Assembly (NCBI GenBank): GCA_034520365.1
Contig: JAXHNP010000007.1
Location: 744,001 to 808,000 of the forward strand
Source: Desulfobacterales bacterium
GTDB lineage: Bacteria > Desulfobacterota > Desulfobacteria > Desulfobacterales > Desulfosalsimonadaceae
Reading direction: 5' to 3'
Length of the DNA stretch: 64,000 nt
Each line of letters begins with the position of its first letter. The stretch's first letter is position 1. The position numbers were made by a program, and so were the translations under genes. Shown here piece after piece: positions 7,460 to 17,646 of this stretch. The notes below the pieces were generated by a model. That model did no database searches. It was not told the origin of the DNA and saw nothing but the letters and a program-made list of their open reading frames with translations.

Positions 7460-7912
7460 CTAAGGTTGGGATTCGTTTTCTTCGCTATCGGGATCGAAAT
7501 CCAAATCGAAATCGCTATCGGGATCGGGATCGATGCTGTAGACTTCCTGATCCTCTCGAACTTGGTATCCTCTTCCGCCGAGACGGCTGAGCATCGCGGC
7601 CATACGGTCGAGTTCATCCTTGCGGTTCCGGCTTTCCATCTTGTCCAGCGCCTTGCCGACAACCAGCACATCTTGAATCGCCGCGCACTCAAGCGCGGAG
7701 CCACGAGCGATTTCGAAATAACGCCTTCGGTCGGCTTCCGCGGTCTTGCCATTACCTTCGGCGATATTGAGCGGTATCGACTGGCTGGCCCGAAGCCATT
7801 GATCCCGGGCGGGCCGATGGACTCCGTTCAGGCTGTCGGCCTTCTCGTAAACCCATGCAACGTAGCCTATTGAAAGGCGATAGACGTCCAGTTTTTCGTG
7901 TCCAAGGTTCAT
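7460..7912 (-). CDS. Four-helix-bundle protein (23S rRNA intervening-sequence type)
   Basis: This is a roughly 150-residue protein of the S23/IVP family (PF05635-like). Recognisable family features are LDVYRLS near the start, RASQSIPLNIAEGNG in the middle, and RRRYFEIARGSALE in the third helix. The family forms small four-helix-bundle oligomers first found inside intervening sequences of 23S rRNA; molecular function is unknown. The tail after the bundle is an acidic run of Asp-Pro/Asp-Ser/Asp-Phe repeats created by one arm of an inverted repeat reading through the gene. Start 7912 (MNLGHEK) was chosen because homology begins there; there is no good ribosome site, and an in-frame extension to 7999 would cross the element boundary. 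Confidence 0.82.
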   Translation of the reverse strand: MNLGHEKLDVYRLSIGYVAWVYEKADSLNGVHRPARDQWLRASQSIPLNIAEGNGKTAEADRRRYFEIARGSALECAAIQDVLVVGKALDKMESRNRKDELDRMAAMLSRLGGRGYQVREDQEVYSIDPDPDSDFDLDFDPDSEENESQP

Positions 7913-7954
7913 ATTTTTTTCGATCCCGATCCCGATTTCGATTTCGATTTGGAT
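7499..7954. repeat. 35-bp inverted repeat around the four-helix-bundle gene
   Basis: Arms at 7499-7533 and 7920-7954 are complementary at 33 of 35 positions. Each is made of degenerate GATCGG and AAATCG hexamer-like units. The arms enclose 386 bp that include the start codon and most of the gene; the 7499 arm is translated as the acidic C-terminal tail. An RNA from this unit could fold into a long stem closing a coding loop, the same architecture as 23S rRNA intervening sequences. Confidence 0.85.
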
Positions 7955-7992
7955 ACAGAACAAATTAGCCCTGCCTATGGCGCGACCGGGTA

Positions 7993-8020
7993 TTGACATT
8001 TATTTTACATTCGTTATTTT
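7993..8020 (+). promoter_or_regulatory. Putative sigma-70-type promoter for amylosucrase
   Basis: TTGACA at 7993-7998 is followed after 16 bases by TATTTT at 8015-8020. Transcription would start about 8027, almost at the ATG at 8030, so the mRNA may be nearly leaderless; this agrees with the lack of a ribosome-binding site. The promoter lies just outside the right end of the inserted element. Confidence 0.4.
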
Positions 8021-11510: not shown

Positions 11511-11540
11511 AAAGGGTGCCGGAAAGGGCACCCTTTGAAT
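11511..11540 (-). terminator. Intrinsic terminator of the met-hdr operon
   Basis: AAAGGGTGCC (11511-11520) and GGCACCCTTT (11527-11536) form a ten-base-pair stem with a six-base loop. On the minus strand the stem is followed by a T-rich run. It lies 34 bases beyond the stop codon of the last operon gene. Confidence 0.8.
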
Positions 11541-11569: not shown

Positions 11570-12895
11570 CTACATCTCTGCCTGTTCCGGGTGGAACATG
11601 TTGACATCCTTCAAGTCATCGCCCAAGTACTCCCGTTCATTCGGCCCGAGGATGCCCATGGCCAGGCACAGGATGGTCCAGAGGTGGACGGCGTGGTATT
11701 TGCCCTCAAAATGCTCGGTCAAGTCGTGGATCTGCGCATGGCAGTTATGGCAGGCTGTGATGCAGTAGTCCGCGTCCGTAGCCACGATCTGATCGTGTTT
11801 GACTTTGCCGAATGACCGGCGCTGCTCGGTATAGCCGGCCTGAAGCGTCCCGCCGCCGCCGCCGCAGCAGAAGTTGTTGGATTTATTCGGGGTCATGTCG
11901 ATGAAGTTTTCCTCGCCGACCGCCGTCTTGAGCACAAAGCGGATGTCGTCGGCCGCCGCGTCCCCGTAAGTTTTGCGGATGATCTGGCAGGGGTCCTGCA
12001 CGGTGAATTTGACCTGGAGATCCTTGTTCCAGTCCGAGTTGACTTCAAGCCGGCCCTCCCGGATCCATTTGGCGTAATATTGATAGATGGTGGCAATTTC
12101 CATGTCGCCCTTGTCGATGTTGTATTTTCTCAGTCCTTCCAGGACTGCAAAGGTGACGTGCCCTCATTCGGTGTTGAGGTACGTTTTGCACCCCAACTCC
12201 TTTGCCTGATTGATGGATGTTTGCACAATATGTTTCCAGCCCTCGTCATCGGCAAGGAACATGCAGTAGTTTTCACCGCCCCAGCCCTTGCTGCCGTAAG
12301 TCCAGTCAACCCCGGCCTTGTGAAGAATCTTCCACAGGGGAAGCAGTTCATCCGGCTCTGTGACCGGTTCCCGGGAATTCTGGTTCAGGAAGAATTCTGC
12401 GCCCTGCTTGTCAATGGGTGCTTGCATATCCTTGAACTCGGGCTGCGCTTCCCGGTATTCTTCGAGCAGGTCTCCCACAACAAACTCAAAATCTTCGGGT
12501 GATGCGCCCATGGCGCTGCATGAGTCGTTTCTTAAGGCCATGTCGCAGGAACCCAGAATTCCCTTGGGCCGCTTTTCCCGGGGCCAGCTTTGCCGGGCAA
12601 AAAAGACCAGCCGCGGAATGTCGATTTTCATCGGGCAGACATAGATGCAGCGCTGGCACATGGTGCAGTGCCAGACCCAGTCTGTGGTGGTGACCTCTTC
12701 GTCAAGCCCTAAGGCCGCCATCCGAAGAAATTTCCGGGGATCCATGCCGTCTAAGCCGGTGGCCGGGCATCCCGAAGAGCATGCCCCGCAGGTCAGGCAA
12801 AGGTTTAGATTGCCTCCTTCCGGTAGGACTTCCTTTACCTTATCAATAAAGGTGCTTTGTTTTTTCCCGCCTAATTTGATTGCCGCCTCTCCCAT
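11570..12895 (-). CDS. HdrC-HdrB-type iron-sulfur selenoprotein (UGA = Sec244)
   Basis: This 441-residue protein reads through one in-frame TGA at 12164-12166. The N-terminal HdrC-like part has two 4Fe-4S motifs: Cys33/36/39/43 and Cys77/80/83/87. The C-terminal HdrB-like CCG domain has Cys303, Cys343-Cys344 and Cys382-x2-Cys385. In Cys-containing relatives the sequence at the UGA is NTECGH, so the UGA replaces the first cluster-ligand cysteine and is best read as selenocysteine. Both sides of the UGA are in the same frame with no other stop. A perfect hairpin with a GGA loop lies downstream of the UGA. It is last in the metV-metF-hdrA operon and would handle the disulfide- or ferredoxin-linked electron transfer. 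Start 12895 has GGAGG seven bases upstream. Confidence 0.85.
12131..12147 (-). promoter_or_regulatory. Bacterial SECIS hairpin
   Basis: On the mRNA (minus) strand CAGUCCU and AGGACUG form a seven-base-pair stem closed by a GGA loop. The loop starts 23 bases after the UGA, within the 16-37-base distance known for bacterial SECIS elements, and contains the conserved guanines. It lies inside the coding sequence, as is normal in bacteria. Confidence 0.75.
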
Positions 12896-13021
12896 ATGGT
12901 TTTCCTCCAATTATTCTGTAGATCCGTCTGTCGATCCGGCTGATAAGTTCCGAAAAACAGTAACTTTCAGCATAAGGTGTTATAAATTTAATCTCATTGA
13001 ACAAAAAGGTCAATGGCCTTT

Positions 13022-14677
13022 TTATCCGATTCGGCGCTCCATTTCAACAGCGATTTTTGCAAAATCCGGGGCCATGTTTGATGCCAGGGTCACAAATTCG
13101 AGCCGGTTTTTATCAATACCCGTCTCCTCAAGCATCCGGTAGGCATTGGCGATCCGCCACCGGGCAAATGTGGTGCCGGTCTCGGATTTGCAGTTGCCCG
13201 GGTGGCAGGCCATCACCAGAACCCCGTCAGCCCCCTCGATCAGCGCGGTCAATACGTAGTGGATATCGACCTTTCCGGCACATGGCACGCGGATCATGCG
13301 AAGCCCGTCCGGCACCTGGTATTGAAAAAGCGCGGCGGTTTTGCCGGCTTCAAGGGATGAGTTCTCGCAGCAGAAGGCGATGATCTTCGGCGCCCCGTTT
13401 TTCACCGCCGATACCGCGGTCCGGATTTGCTCCGTGATTTCATCATCCGCATATCCGGTGACCTGAATGGCCTCCTGCGGGCATTCGCTGGCGCATATGC
13501 CGCAGGCCTGGCAGGCGACCGGCGAAATCACCGCCTTGTCATCCCAATAGATGGCCCCGTGCGGGCAGCAGCGGAAGCAGGTAAGGCAGGTGACGCACTT
13601 CTCCCGGTCCACCACGGCCCGGAATCTGGGAACTTCCCGGGTGCCGTCGCCCAGAAGCTGTTTGAGCTGCATCACGGTGTTTTCCACATCCGTCCAGGCA
13701 TCGGAGAGGTTTTGGATGTCCCGGCTGGAGCCCACCACATAGATGCCCTCCCGGTTTGAGTTGACCGGGAAGCGGTGAATATTGTCGGTTTGCAGAAACC
13801 CCATAGGGCCCAGGTCGATCCGCAGGATCTCCGCCAGTTCGGGATTTATCTGGTTGGCGGTCATGGCCTCTTCGACCACCACAAAATCCGGGTCAAGTTC
13901 AATATCCGAGCGGACCACCGGATCATGGAATCCGATCACCGGTGCATCCCCCTGCTGCACAATGGACGGGGCCGCGTTTAATTTGAAATAAATGGCCCCT
14001 TTGTCCCGGCCCTCTTTGTAAAGGCGCTCCAGGTTATCGCCGGCCACTTTGATGTCGTTGATGTATACATAGGGGGTGGCGCCGGAGCCGGAGGCTTCAG
14101 CAACAGCCAGGACCCCGTCAAGGATCCGCTTCATGAGCAGGGGGTTGCCCTCCTGGGCAAACCCCGCCAAAAATGCCACGGCCGCCTGGTCGCCTTTCAG
14201 TTTGTTTTGAAATTCCGCATCAGTAAGTTTTTCTTCAAAATCGGACAGGGTGAGCACTTTATCGGACAGCTCAAGGCCGTAAATATGGTTCAGCGGGGCG
14301 GAGACGATATCCGTGGCCACGACCACCGCGCCGACCGTTTTCTCCAGTGCTTCGCCTTGGCTGGTGAGCCGGATGGTAAAATCCCCGGTCACCCCGGCGG
14401 CCTCATTGATATCCGCCTCGGGCAGAAATTCGATCCGCTCATCTGCAGCAACCGCGTCCTTTAATTCCTTGAGCTGGTTTTCCATGGGGGCGGCAATCCC
14501 CAGCAGCGAGAACCGGTTTAGGTTATCGGCCTCCTCCTGATCGGCCAGGATGACATGAAAGCCGTTTTCTGCAATGGCCCGGGCCGCTTTAAGCCCCGTA
14601 TAACCTCCGCCGATGACCATTACATCCGTTGCAATCTCAATTTTTTCAGTTTCTTGGGTGTTTTTTGCGGTTGTCAT
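13022..14677 (-). CDS. HdrA/QmoB-like flavoprotein with MvhD domain
   Basis: This 551-residue protein has an N-terminal FAD-binding GGGYTG motif (about 23-28). Two 4Fe-4S ferredoxin motifs occur near residues 358-370 and 385-397 (CVTCLTCFRCCP and CQACGICASECP). A C-terminal MvhD/FrhD domain has the motifs CCEN, CAGK and CHPGNC. The combination is that of QmoB, but shorter than the usual roughly 750 residues. It overlaps the upstream hdrA gene by ATGA, indicating translational coupling. With MetVF and the HdrCB-like selenoprotein it probably builds a multi-enzyme electron-transfer complex; flavin-based bifurcation is inferred by analogy with the Moorella metVF-hdrCBA-mvhD cluster. Confidence 0.88.
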   Translation of the reverse strand: MTTAKNTQETEKIEIATDVMVIGGGYTGLKAARAIAENGFHVILADQEEADNLNRFSLLGIAAPMENQLKELKDAVAADERIEFLPEADINEAAGVTGDFTIRLTSQGEALEKTVGAVVVATDIVSAPLNHIYGLELSDKVLTLSDFEEKLTDAEFQNKLKGDQAAVAFLAGFAQEGNPLLMKRILDGVLAVAEASGSGATPYVYINDIKVAGDNLERLYKEGRDKGAIYFKLNAAPSIVQQGDAPVIGFHDPVVRSDIELDPDFVVVEEAMTANQINPELAEILRIDLGPMGFLQTDNIHRFPVNSNREGIYVVGSSRDIQNLSDAWTDVENTVMQLKQLLGDGTREVPRFRAVVDREKCVTCLTCFRCCPHGAIYWDDKAVISPVACQACGICASECPQEAIQVTGYADDEITEQIRTAVSAVKNGAPKIIAFCCENSSLEAGKTAALFQYQVPDGLRMIRVPCAGKVDIHYVLTALIEGADGVLVMACHPGNCKSETGTTFARWRIANAYRMLEETGIDKNRLEFVTLASNMAPDFAKIAVEMERRIG

Positions 14678-15912
14678 TTGGTCACCCCCAGGTATTTCAG
14701 CACTTCCCCCGCCGCCTGGCCGGCATGGGCCATTGAACCGGCAATGGTATTCGGGCCGCTGGCGGTGCCGGCAACAAAAATGCCGTTTTGTGAAGTGATT
14801 GATTGGTTGAGCGCCTCCGCATGGGCGAAGAATCCATCTGTGTCCAGTTCAATGCCTAAGAGGTCTGAGAGGCTTTGATTGTCCGAATTCGGCATAATTC
14901 CGGTAGACAGCACCACCAGGTCAAAGGTTTCCATGGCTGGTGCGCCCTGGGCTTCATCAAAAATCCGAAGCGTCATGCGGTCGTTTTCTTCCGGAAAGAT
15001 ATCCACCGGAATGCTGCGGATGAACCGGAAGTCCGACTTACAGACCTGGTAGAAGGCCGGGAAGTTTTTACCAATATTCTGAATGTCCATGTAGAAGATG
15101 GTGATGTCCATATCCGGTGATTTGTGTTTAGCCGATCGCGCGGAGCGCAAAGCATAGGGGCAGCAGACCCGGGAGCACCACAAGTGCCCCAGCCGTTCAT
15201 CGCGGCTGCCCACGCATTGGATAAAGGCCACTTTTTCGGGGACCTGCTTGTCCGTGGGGCGGAGAATCATTCCGTGTTCGCGTTTGATCTGCTCCATCTC
15301 CAGGCCGCTGACCACATTCGGGTAATCCGCATACCGGTAGGTGGGTTTCTCGTTCGGATCAAAAGGCTCAAATCCGGTGGCCACGATTACGGCATCCACG
15401 CTAAGGGATGCCGATTGCGCCGCGGCATCCACTGAAATCGCCCCTTCGGGGCATACGGAGGCAAAGAAATCGCGGTGCTGCTGAACGCCTTCTTCCGTAA
15501 TCACGTATAACGGGTGATTGTTTTTGCTGTATCCCCGCAGCACCAGTCCTTCCGCCGGCGCCTGGGTGAAGCAGAGGCCGCAATTGGTGCATTTTTTTGG
15601 GTCGATATAGCGGGGGGCCGTTTTAAGGGTGGCCGAGAACTTGTGGTTGTCCGAATTGATCGCTTCAACCGTGGTTTTGGGGTGCAGTTGAATGGTCGGT
15701 GTTTCAGTGACGGCCTTCAGGGTTTTCTCAACGGCACAGGCACCGCACTGGAGGCATTCATCCGTGGCTTTACAGGTGTAACCGATGGCATAGCCGCCCA
15801 TAAAGCCGGTTTTTTCGACCAAATGGACGTTCACACCGAATTCGGCCAGCTCTGTGGCGGCCGTCAGGCCGGCGATGCCTCCGCCCATGATCATGACTTG
15901 TTTGGGTTCCAT
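14674..15912 (-). CDS. HdrA/QmoA-like FAD iron-sulfur protein
   Basis: This 412-residue protein starts with a dinucleotide-binding GGGIAG motif at residues 10-15. Cys47, 53, 56 and 59 are typical of the HdrA N-terminal cluster, and a second ferredoxin-like set begins at Cys108/111/114; its fourth ligand is displaced, the nearest candidate being the VCPEGA cysteine near 153. Length and layout match QmoA. QmoA normally belongs to the APS-reductase-linked membrane complex, but no aprAB or qmoC is nearby; here the gene follows metF, pointing to a role in methylene-tetrahydrofolate redox chemistry. An AGGAG lies 13 bases before the ATG, somewhat far. Confidence 0.87.
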   Translation of the reverse strand: MEPKQVMIMGGGIAGLTAATELAEFGVNVHLVEKTGFMGGYAIGYTCKATDECLQCGACAVEKTLKAVTETPTIQLHPKTTVEAINSDNHKFSATLKTAPRYIDPKKCTNCGLCFTQAPAEGLVLRGYSKNNHPLYVITEEGVQQHRDFFASVCPEGAISVDAAAQSASLSVDAVIVATGFEPFDPNEKPTYRYADYPNVVSGLEMEQIKREHGMILRPTDKQVPEKVAFIQCVGSRDERLGHLWCSRVCCPYALRSARSAKHKSPDMDITIFYMDIQNIGKNFPAFYQVCKSDFRFIRSIPVDIFPEENDRMTLRIFDEAQGAPAMETFDLVVLSTGIMPNSDNQSLSDLLGIELDTDGFFAHAEALNQSITSQNGIFVAGTASGPNTIAGSMAHAGQAAGEVLKYLGVTK

Positions 15913-16001: not shown

Positions 16002-16925
16002 TTAAACCTCGGGTCTTGGCAGCATGCCCGCCATCTCGGCGATTTCGGGCACGCGGTGCTCCCACTCGATGGCCATCAGGTGGATGCCGGAGATCCCTTC
16101 CATCTCCTTAAATTCCTGGATCTGCTCGCAGGCGATGGCAATGCCTTCTTTGCCCTGTTTTTTCTTTTCCACGCCTTTGAGCCGGTTGATGATTTCATCC
16201 GGCACATCCATGCCCGGCACCTTGCTCTTCATGTATCGGGCCATACCAAGGCTTTTCATGGGCGTAATCCCGGCCAGGATGTAGACCTTTTCGGTCAGTC
16301 CCATATCCCTCGCCCGTTTGACCCATTCGCGCATCTTCTCCATATTATAGATGCACTGGGTCTGGATGAAATCCGCGCCCGCGTTGATTTTTTTGGCCAG
16401 CCGGTAGACGCGCCACTCAAAGGGCTCGGCAAACGGGTTGGCGGCTGCGCCGATAAACATCCGCGGCGGGTCATCGATCTCCTGGCCGTTTAAGAACTTT
16501 CCCTCCTCCCGCATGGTGGAGACGGTTTGAATGAGCTGCATGGAGTCAATGTCGAAAACGCCCTTGCACTGGGGGTGATCCCCGAACTGCTGGTGGTCGC
16601 CGGACAGGCAGAGCATATTACGGATGCCCATGGCGTAGGCGCCGAGAATATCGGCCTGCATGGCCAGGCGGTTTCGGTCCCGGCAGACCATCTGGTAGTT
16701 GGGTTCCAGGCCTTCCTGAAGGGCCAGGAGGCTCGCCGCCCAGCTTGACATCCGGACCACGGCGGTCTGGTTGTCCGTGATATTGACGGAATCCACCACG
16801 CCTTTCAGCGGTTCGGCCTTTTTGCGAATGGTCTCGATATTGGCCCCGCGCGGGGGGCCCAGCTCTCCGGTAAACGCAAAGTGACCGGCTTCCAGTATTT
16901 TTTCAAGTTTACTTCCAGATTTCAT
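16002..16925 (-). CDS. metF: Methylenetetrahydrofolate reductase, MetF
   Basis: This 307-residue TIM-barrel flavoprotein of the MetF family has GELGPPRG near the N-terminus, the folate-site segment SVNITDN, and CLSGDH in the FAD region. It interconverts methylene- and methyl-tetrahydrofolate. In an acetyl-CoA-pathway organism it may run in the oxidative direction. It is directly downstream of metV (43 bases) and upstream of hdrA, the gene order expected for a MetVF enzyme whose electrons pass to Hdr-type partners rather than to NAD(P)H alone. AAGGA precedes the start. Confidence 0.93.
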   Translation of the reverse strand: MKSGSKLEKILEAGHFAFTGELGPPRGANIETIRKKAEPLKGVVDSVNITDNQTAVVRMSSWAASLLALQEGLEPNYQMVCRDRNRLAMQADILGAYAMGIRNMLCLSGDHQQFGDHPQCKGVFDIDSMQLIQTVSTMREEGKFLNGQEIDDPPRMFIGAAANPFAEPFEWRVYRLAKKINAGADFIQTQCIYNMEKMREWVKRARDMGLTEKVYILAGITPMKSLGMARYMKSKVPGMDVPDEIINRLKGVEKKKQGKEGIAIACEQIQEFKEMEGISGIHLMAIEWEHRVPEIAEMAGMLPRPEV

Positions 16926-16968: not shown

Positions 16969-17646
16969 CTATTTTGTTGATTCGTGGCGCTCCTCGTAAC
17001 CGGGCTGAATCAGCGTCTGGGGTTTTTGATTCCGCCAGTCGTTGGCCGGACAGATTTCGATGATTTTATCAAGTCGTCCCTGTCTGGCCAGCCGTTCATA
17101 AATCATCTGCCAGGCACAGGGCTGGTCATTATGGATCTCGCAGCTGCCGTCGTTGGTGCCGCCGCAGGGACCGTTAAAAAGGCTTTTGGCGCACATGGTG
17201 ACCGGGCAGATGCCGGCGGTCATGCCGAGCACACAGCTGCCGCAGGCTTTACACCGTTCTTCGTACCATCCCACATCCTGGTTGACGCCGATAAAGGTGG
17301 TGTCCACTGCGGGGAAAACCGGCGTGTCCGGAAATCGCTCGGCCAGAAACTGGATGCCGGCGCCGCAGGCCATGGACAGGAGGGCGTCATATTCCGGCAC
17401 GAGATTGTCGAGTTCATCCAGAAATTCCCGGTCGCACTGGCGCTGGACAGTGGCCTCACCGAATTCAGCGGAATCGGGTTCGGATTTCTGGCTGAGTTTC
17501 AGTTCAGCCGCCAGCACGCCGACTTCCTTTTCACCGCCGGTCAGGCATACCGCCACACATGTGCCGCATCCCACGACAAGGATTTTTTTGTAGCCCTGGA
17601 TCAGGCTTTTAATTTCATCAAATGGTTTACGCTTGGCCACGATCAT
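16969..17646 (-). CDS. metV: MetV, zinc/iron-sulfur partner of MetF
   Basis: This 225-residue protein matches the methylenetetrahydrofolate reductase C-terminal-domain family (MetV). It has an N-terminal GCGTC motif and a cysteine-rich C-terminal stretch, CKACGSCVLG through ICPVTMCAK to GPCGG. MetV is required for activity of the acetogen-type MetF and shuttles electrons to it. It is the first gene of the leftward met-hdr operon, with GGAGG eight bases before ATG 17646. The upstream region carries a short palindrome (TTGAC-TTT-GTCAA at 17826-17838) and AT-rich sequence where the promoter should lie, but no convincing -35/-10 pair was found. Confidence 0.9.
   Translation of the reverse strand: MIVAKRKPFDEIKSLIQGYKKILVVGCGTCVAVCLTGGEKEVGVLAAELKLSQKSEPDSAEFGEATVQRQCDREFLDELDNLVPEYDALLSMACGAGIQFLAERFPDTPVFPAVDTTFIGVNQDVGWYEERCKACGSCVLGMTAGICPVTMCAKSLFNGPCGGTNDGSCEIHNDQPCAWQMIYERLARQGRLDKIIEICPANDWRNQKPQTLIQPGYEERHESTK

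Follow-up and report, generated by a model that had tools for sequence, protein, structure and literature searches.

The 64-kb stretch of Desulfobacterales DNA analyzed here (the window, along which all positions are counted) carries a gene cluster on its minus strand in the order metV-metF-hdrA-hdrA/mvhD-hdrCB, with hdrCB in last place. The first gene (16969..17646) matched the Pfam family PF12225, 'Methylene-tetrahydrofolate reductase C terminal', with 124.2 bits, and the name metV was assigned to it in this analysis. It is followed by metF (16002..16925), a methylenetetrahydrofolate reductase gene with 138.6 bits to Pfam MTHFR. The next two genes encode an HdrA-type flavoprotein of 412 aa with a TGA stop (14674..15912) and a C-terminal half of HdrA fused to an MvhD (FlpD) domain (13022..14677; Pfam FlpD, 120.2 bits); their NCBIfam HdrA2 scores of 285 and 238.5 bits were below the cut-off of 1100. 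The cluster holds metV, metF, hdrA, mvhD, hdrC, and hdrB, which is the gene set of an Hdr-type methylene-tetrahydrofolate (methylene-THF) reductase. The hdrCB gene (11570..12895) is preceded by a Shine-Dalgarno-like GGAGG (12904..12908, minus strand), read from the sequence. A terminator-like 10-bp hairpin (11511..11536, minus strand) starts 34 bases past its full-length stop, which is weak evidence when taken alone, as the region has nine such sites vs. 10.9 expected by shuffling. Elsewhere in the window, a 179-aa protein of the 23S rRNA-intervening-sequence family (PF05635, 67.1 bits) was encoded at 7460-7999 on the minus strand, with low-complexity ends (IEIEIGIGI and DPDSDFDLDFD) in which no tandem repeat was called. 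Beside this gene, a short flavodoxin-like start on the plus strand from 7307, read by eye in an ORF without a Pfam match, breaks off.

The hdrCB frame runs from an ATG at 12895 to a TAG stop at 11572-11570 and comprises 441 codons, of which one, codon 244 (12166-12164), is a TGA. Past this codon, 197 more codons precede the TAG. The first-pass annotation had described this extension, together with a split into two truncated genes by an ordinary gene caller. Both descriptions held, with the frame on the minus strand: the mechanical ORF list breaks the gene into an ORF of 248 aa with a TTG start (12164-12910) and one of 177 aa (11570-12103). The 591 nt beyond the TGA stayed open in just 10 of 20,000 mononucleotide shuffles. 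A scan for additional selenoproteins in the window returned 28 TGA-interrupted frames that had 60 or more codons to either side of the TGA; hdrCB was the longest in sum (248 + 197), and the other 27 were judged by eye to be antisense or chance frames. In comparisons with nine homologues, dN/dS was 0.021-0.077 upstream of the TGA and 0.046-0.217 downstream (computable in six of nine pairs for each half), figures that are only rough because dS was high (0.9-2.4), with four of the nine pairs saturated in at least one half. The codons 3' of the TGA are under purifying selection, as are those 5' of it. The two ORF fragments are very probably one iron-sulfur electron-transfer protein, since the apparent stop is very probably read as selenocysteine (Sec).

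Homologues were collected at E ≤ 1e-60 from 395 genomes of the phylum and 60 close relatives, of which 111 and 50, respectively, encoded one, with a single internal TGA in most of the matches listed. Across 178 aligned copies, codon 244 was TGA in 139, TGC in 37, TGT in two, and nothing else, which agrees with the Cys/Sec conservation that the first-pass annotation had expected at this position. Four unnamed copies initially left out of this alignment added three TGA and one TGC. Named records gave a similar picture (80 loci, in part the same as the unnamed copies: 71 TGA and nine Cys, with G-H next in all), and the TGA forms among them included Desulfobacter latus, Desulfocicer vacuolatum DSM 3385, Desulfoprunum benzoelyticum, Desulfoluna limicola, Desulfopila aestuarii, and Desulfonema magnum. 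Repeated exchange between Sec and Cys alone is a classic mark of selenoproteins. On a FastTree phylogeny of 127 sequences (125 non-redundant copies and two outgroup paralogues, with long-branch warnings), 12 Sec/Cys changes were counted, of which at least 11 were forced by starred branches. Sec and Cys copies occurred together in at least 10 genomes (G389, G036, G254, G295, G132, G172, G070, G391, G277, and G080), as if the Cys copy were a selenium-independent spare. Distant subfamilies (L125-L187, 32-42% identity, with contexts such as PE-U-GHAYY and YTE-U-GHG) also had TGA at the same column and, in most, a bSECIS-like hairpin; several of these copies adjoin hdrA genes. Some homologues contained an extra TAA or TAG or a second TGA, and recoding of UAA/UAG was suspected and rejected: within the 178 copies, the extra in-frame stops lay at or beyond query position 416 or were unaligned at the C-terminal end. 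In the added sequences they lay at 437-438 (G423) and 417 (G420), and a second TGA in G414, at aligned position 11, precedes the conserved part.

The TGA is followed on the minus strand by the hairpin CAGTCCT-GGA-AGGACTG (12131..12147), with a 7-bp stem (12147-12141/12137-12131) and a GGA loop (12140-12138) that begins 23 nt past the UGA; the first-pass annotation had reported a GGA-loop hairpin 23 bases after this codon. To score such bSECIS-like folds we used a criterion of our own rather than the published bSECISearch, requiring a loop of 3-14 nt that starts 13-37 nt after the codon, a stem of at least 4 bp, and a G as the first or second base of the loop. The fold was found in 132 of 139 TGA copies (36.7 expected from synonymous shuffles) vs. 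four of 39 Cys copies (9.0 expected). Seven TGA copies missed the criterion; the one inspected, L044, has the stem letters, and its minimum-energy fold pairs otherwise. The loop of the longest hairpin started 23 nt past the UGA in 96 of the 139 copies, 22 nt in 26, and 21 nt in eight (130 together). In a sample of 58 TGA copies picked for diversity, 97.0% of the 406 cells of the 7-bp stem were paired, with both-side changes at three pairs; the innermost pair was G-C in 24 copies, U-A in 23, A-U in four, U-G in four, G-U in one, and other in two. When the partner strand was shifted by 1-3 columns, pairing dropped to 19-49%. The covariation score was 0.427 vs. 0.204 in shuffled alignments, and this score, the cells paired, and the cells changed on both sides were above all 500 shuffles. 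Two of the five measures were not: 480 of 500 shuffles reached the observed count of doubly changed pairs, and 471 of 500 that of pair types. The hairpin stem covaries. A search with Rfam at gathering thresholds found no family in the window.

The genome (4.33 Mb, eight contigs, 99.39% complete) encodes the four components of a Sec system, each above its family cut-off: selB (361.2 bits), selA (623.1 bits), the tRNA-Sec gene selC (78.2 bits), and selD (381.7 bits). Absence of this machinery would have counted against the Sec assignment of the first-pass annotation, which the machinery, the Cys/TGA-only column, and the hairpin now support. The selD gene itself has one in-frame TGA, as do two of the five FlpD/MvhD copies of the genome (at G000:C6:556753-557118 and C3:476507-476875). 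These three are likely further selenoproteins, and the organism therefore probably uses Sec elsewhere. Among 80 genomes tested for selA, drawn from a set of 125 (60 with a TGA copy, 10 with Cys copies only, and 10 without a match), all 80 were positive, so this test does not discriminate TGA from Cys-only genomes. Taken together, UGA 244 is very probably decoded as Sec: we infer insertion at the protein level through SelB and tRNA-Sec, which the bSECIS-like hairpin with its loop 23 nt downstream would direct.

Other readings of the codon were weighed against Sec. If the UGA were a true stop, the locus would be either a fresh pseudogene or a pair of separately translated subunits, an HdrC-plus and an HdrB-like one. 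The downstream half does have its own in-frame ATG 21 codons past the TGA (ORF 11570-12103), and the neighboring hdrA shows that UGA remains a stop in this operon, as it ends in a TGA that overlaps the ATG of the next gene. Yet a true stop would sit poorly with a TGA kept at one column across the phylum and replaced there only by Cys, with low dN/dS on both sides, and with a hairpin specific to TGA copies; split translation would also part the five CCG cysteines from the U-G-H motif described below, putting them on different chains. We regard this reading as extremely improbable. It is also very improbable that the UGA, through reassignment or suppression, is read as Trp or Cys in place of Sec. 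Non-TGA homologues all have Cys, so Cys insertion would satisfy the conservation equally, but the same hdrA stop speaks against reassignment, the Sec system is complete, and the hairpin follows TGA rather than Cys. The chance that a sequencing or assembly error turned TGC into TGA is practically nil: nothing was found in favor of an error, genomes of the same genus and family (L064-L067) carry TGA at that codon, and an error would leave the bSECIS unexplained.

Read through as Sec, the hdrCB product has an HdrC-HdrB (HdrD-like) architecture, in which a complete (second) CCG motif is joined to two ferredoxin-type cluster motifs, as Pfam domains, invariant cysteines, and fold matches to EtfD and HdrB indicate. 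The reading as an HdrC-HdrB fusion in the first-pass annotation was right, and both HdrC and HdrB were matched in sequence as well as in structure. Invariant cysteines were called from an alignment of 58 sequences (A1). The HdrC-like 4Fe-4S dicluster domain (Pfam Fer4_8; residues 30-91, 12623..12808, minus strand) has invariant Cys 33, 36, 39, 43, 77, 80, 83, and 87, and the complete CCG domain (Pfam CCG, 40.3 bits; residues 298-389, 11729..12004, minus strand) has invariant Cys 303, 343, 344, 382, and 385. Between them, in residues 88-300, position 244 is the sole invariant cysteine; Cys236 was present in 84% of sequences and Cys211 and Cys117 in 57% each. HdrB carries two complete CCG motifs, and its first consists of five Cys. 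Such a pair was not found in the hdrCB product, whose first region keeps position 244 alone, and TIGR03288 (HdrB proper) scored 28.3 bits against a cut-off of 345.15. The best NCBIfam matches were all under their cut-offs as well (HmcF 165.3 of 750, TmcB 156.8 of 735, and DsrK 113.9 of 400 bits). An AlphaFold2 model (mean pLDDT 91.1) had its best fold match in EtfD of Mycobacterium smegmatis (Z 26.8, rmsd 2.7, 373 residues). HdrB structures (PDB 5odc/8rvy/7bkb) followed with Z 21.6-22.4 and rmsd 2.5-2.7 over 244-255 residues, and the fold library also returned LutA (9a6l), 3kwl, and HdrC (5odh). The remaining VIA-align matches shown reached a Z of 7.3 at most and were set aside.

Residue 244 opens a U-G-H motif (residues 244-246, 12158..12166, minus strand), with G-H following it in 139 of 139 TGA copies and 34 of 39 Cys copies. 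In the Cys-type copies L171, L182, and L184, D-C-G-G replaces E-C-G-H, with loss of the proposed ligand His, which happens in none of the 139 TGA copies. A gapless HMMER alignment to 9ojn_A places U244-G-H246 on EtfD Cys581-Pro-His583, and hhalign results also support the pairing of His246 with His583. In EtfD, His583 is described as a ligand of the noncubane cluster in the second CCG domain and Cys581 as one of four Cys ligands of a linear [3Fe-4S] cluster (PMC13083937). Of the linear-cluster cysteines 503, 538, 581, and 584, 581 is kept as residue 244 and the place of 584 is taken by V, A, or other residues; no other Cys is invariant in this region, where the places of 503 and 538 were set by sequence alignment alone. 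Against HdrB, the position of U244 is ambiguous by one residue: HMMER puts it, with a gap, on the second Cys of the CxxC, as compared with the first in EtfD. Within the same genome, DsrK-like and HmcF-like paralogues have C-G-H at the U-G-H place, and hhalign showed D-P-H and S-P-H there in two proteins taken for EtfD/DgcB relatives.

The first CCG motif has probably been lost, which makes the normal assembly of a first noncubane cluster unlikely. As position 244 is the sole invariant Cys of that region, Sec244 is probably no ordinary first-cluster ligand. The proposal of the first-pass annotation that Sec replaces a cluster-ligand Cys was therefore upheld for the Cys/Sec-only position and not for the ligand role, given a first CCG motif otherwise without invariant Cys. 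Judging from the alignment, Sec244 is probably a selenolate adjoining the cluster of the second CCG domain. His246 would then help to hold the noncubane cluster, with Sec244 as a neighboring ligand or redox partner. A bolder version, which we put forward tentatively as one that may well be wrong, is that Sec244 is a catalytic or exchangeable residue rather than a structural ligand, in a hybrid site where the five Cys of one CCG domain plus His246 ligate a noncubane [4Fe-4S] cluster and the other, collapsed CCG domain brings a selenolate close to it. If true, methylene-THF reductase complexes and the wider DsrK/HmcF-like family would use a site with one cluster as an alternative to the heterodisulfide reductase site with two; a literature search turned up no noncubane clusters in papers on DsrK. 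The U-G-H motif could offer a concrete picture of how a single noncubane cluster and a selenolate replace that two-cluster site.

The partners of the protein were considered from gene context. In 20 larger neighborhoods of TGA copies, chosen by us and 68-84% identical by tblastn, the order metV-metF-hdrA-hdrA/mvhD-hdrCB was kept in seven, and in three more metV-metF stood directly behind hdrCB, after the hdrA/mvhD genes. The other 10 had no metVF directly beside hdrCB, although one of them (L303) has a metV-like gene ~2.5 kb off; the hdrCB family is therefore not bound to one partner, and these copies suggest that it has other partners as well. Pull-downs in Sporomusa ovata are reported to show interaction of MetF, HdrA, HdrB, and MvhD, and a complex of these with MetV was proposed as methylene-THF reductase (PMC9430772). 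A Chloroflexi single-cell genome is reported to hold an HdrC-HdrB fusion within an hdrABC-mvhD-metVF cluster (PMC5736913). Given the gene context, the S. ovata pull-downs, and the Chloroflexi fusion cluster, the hdrCB product is likely an electron-transfer subunit of an Hdr-type methylene-THF reductase of the Wood-Ljungdahl pathway, working in either direction. It is also conceivable, if rather unlikely, that the protein contains Sec and belongs to another complex, with DsrK/HmcF-like thiol or menaquinone chemistry, and that metVF is merely a genomic neighbor. The NCBIfam similarities to HmcF, TmcB, and DsrK, far below cut-off as they are, the 10 of 20 copies away from metVF, and the C-G-H of the DsrK-like and HmcF-like paralogues all lean this way. 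Against it stand the conserved order in seven neighborhoods, the metVF adjacency in 10 of 20, and the Chloroflexi fusion.

We favor the methylene-THF reductase subunit, and combine it with Sec decoding and a U-G-H motif at the cluster in an overall explanation to which we assign a probability of roughly 0.7. The last gene of the operon would yield a 441-residue HdrC-HdrB fusion, in which two ferredoxin-type [4Fe-4S] clusters would exchange electrons with the noncubane-type cluster of the C-terminal CCG domain. Sec244 and His246, a putative remnant of the degenerate first CCG domain, would face that cluster, with His246 as a probable ligand in the manner of EtfD His583 and Sec244 as either an extra exchangeable iron ligand or a redox-active selenolate beside the cluster. 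In sulfate-reducer-type bacteria, selenium supply would then be tied to C1 metabolism through a probable electron-transfer subunit.

Sec in a UGH-type iron-sulfur oxidoreductase (GlpC) and in HdrD4 is already in print, and the hdrCB case is not new in kind. Zhang et al. (2006) listed an Fe-S oxidoreductase (GlpC) selenoprotein family of five members, three of them in Syntrophobacter fumaroxidans and single ones in Desulfotalea psychrophila and Desulfovibrio vulgaris, with the S. fumaroxidans genes in operons with hdrA (PMC1794560). A 2026 review gives the family motif as UGH (PMC13188914), and the family reference is WP_174406253.1 (PTHR43551). The hdrCB product contains this motif and, judged by name, motif, domains, and taxon, is assigned as a further member of the GlpC-type family. 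The likeness includes Sec in the U-G-H of an Fe-S protein of Deltaproteobacteria, encoded beside hdrA and mvhD/frhD-type genes (PMC1794560, PMC13188914). The GlpC operons are described as glpC-hdrA-frhD-frhG-frhA, with a hydrogenase, whereas metV and metF are found here, with HdrA split and its second half fused to MvhD. The genome paper of Desulfobacterium autotrophicum HRM2 names HdrD4, an HdrC-HdrB protein, among the selenoproteins; as described there, HdrD4 resembles the hdrCB product as a soluble HdrD-type protein with predicted Sec, in a setting where Sec and Cys paralogues coexist (PMC2702500). A literature search of titles and abstract openings returned no report of Sec in a MetVF-linked HdrB or HdrD, which is not proof of absence; the Sec form linked to metVF and the reading of U-G-H against EtfD may be new.

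The gene set of metV, metF, hdrA, mvhD, and hdrC/hdrB resembles that of the Hdr-type methylene-THF reductase HdrCBA-MvhD-MetVF of S. ovata and Moorella thermoacetica (PMC9430772). That complex has HdrC and HdrB as separate proteins, and no mention of Sec in its HdrB was found, whereas here the two are fused with a predicted Sec. Like methanogen HdrB (5odc/8rvy/7bkb), the hdrCB product has the CCG fold and a complete second CCG motif, but HdrB is described as holding two noncubane clusters (PMC13083937) and only one complete CCG motif is present here. EtfD of M. smegmatis (PDB 9ojn) is the closest in fold, and its Cys-Pro-His stretch is reported to supply the His that ligates a noncubane cluster; in contrast to the hdrCB product, EtfD is membrane-bound and uses four Cys for a linear [3Fe-4S] cluster, of which, by alignment, just the counterpart of Cys581 would remain here, as Sec (PMC13083937).
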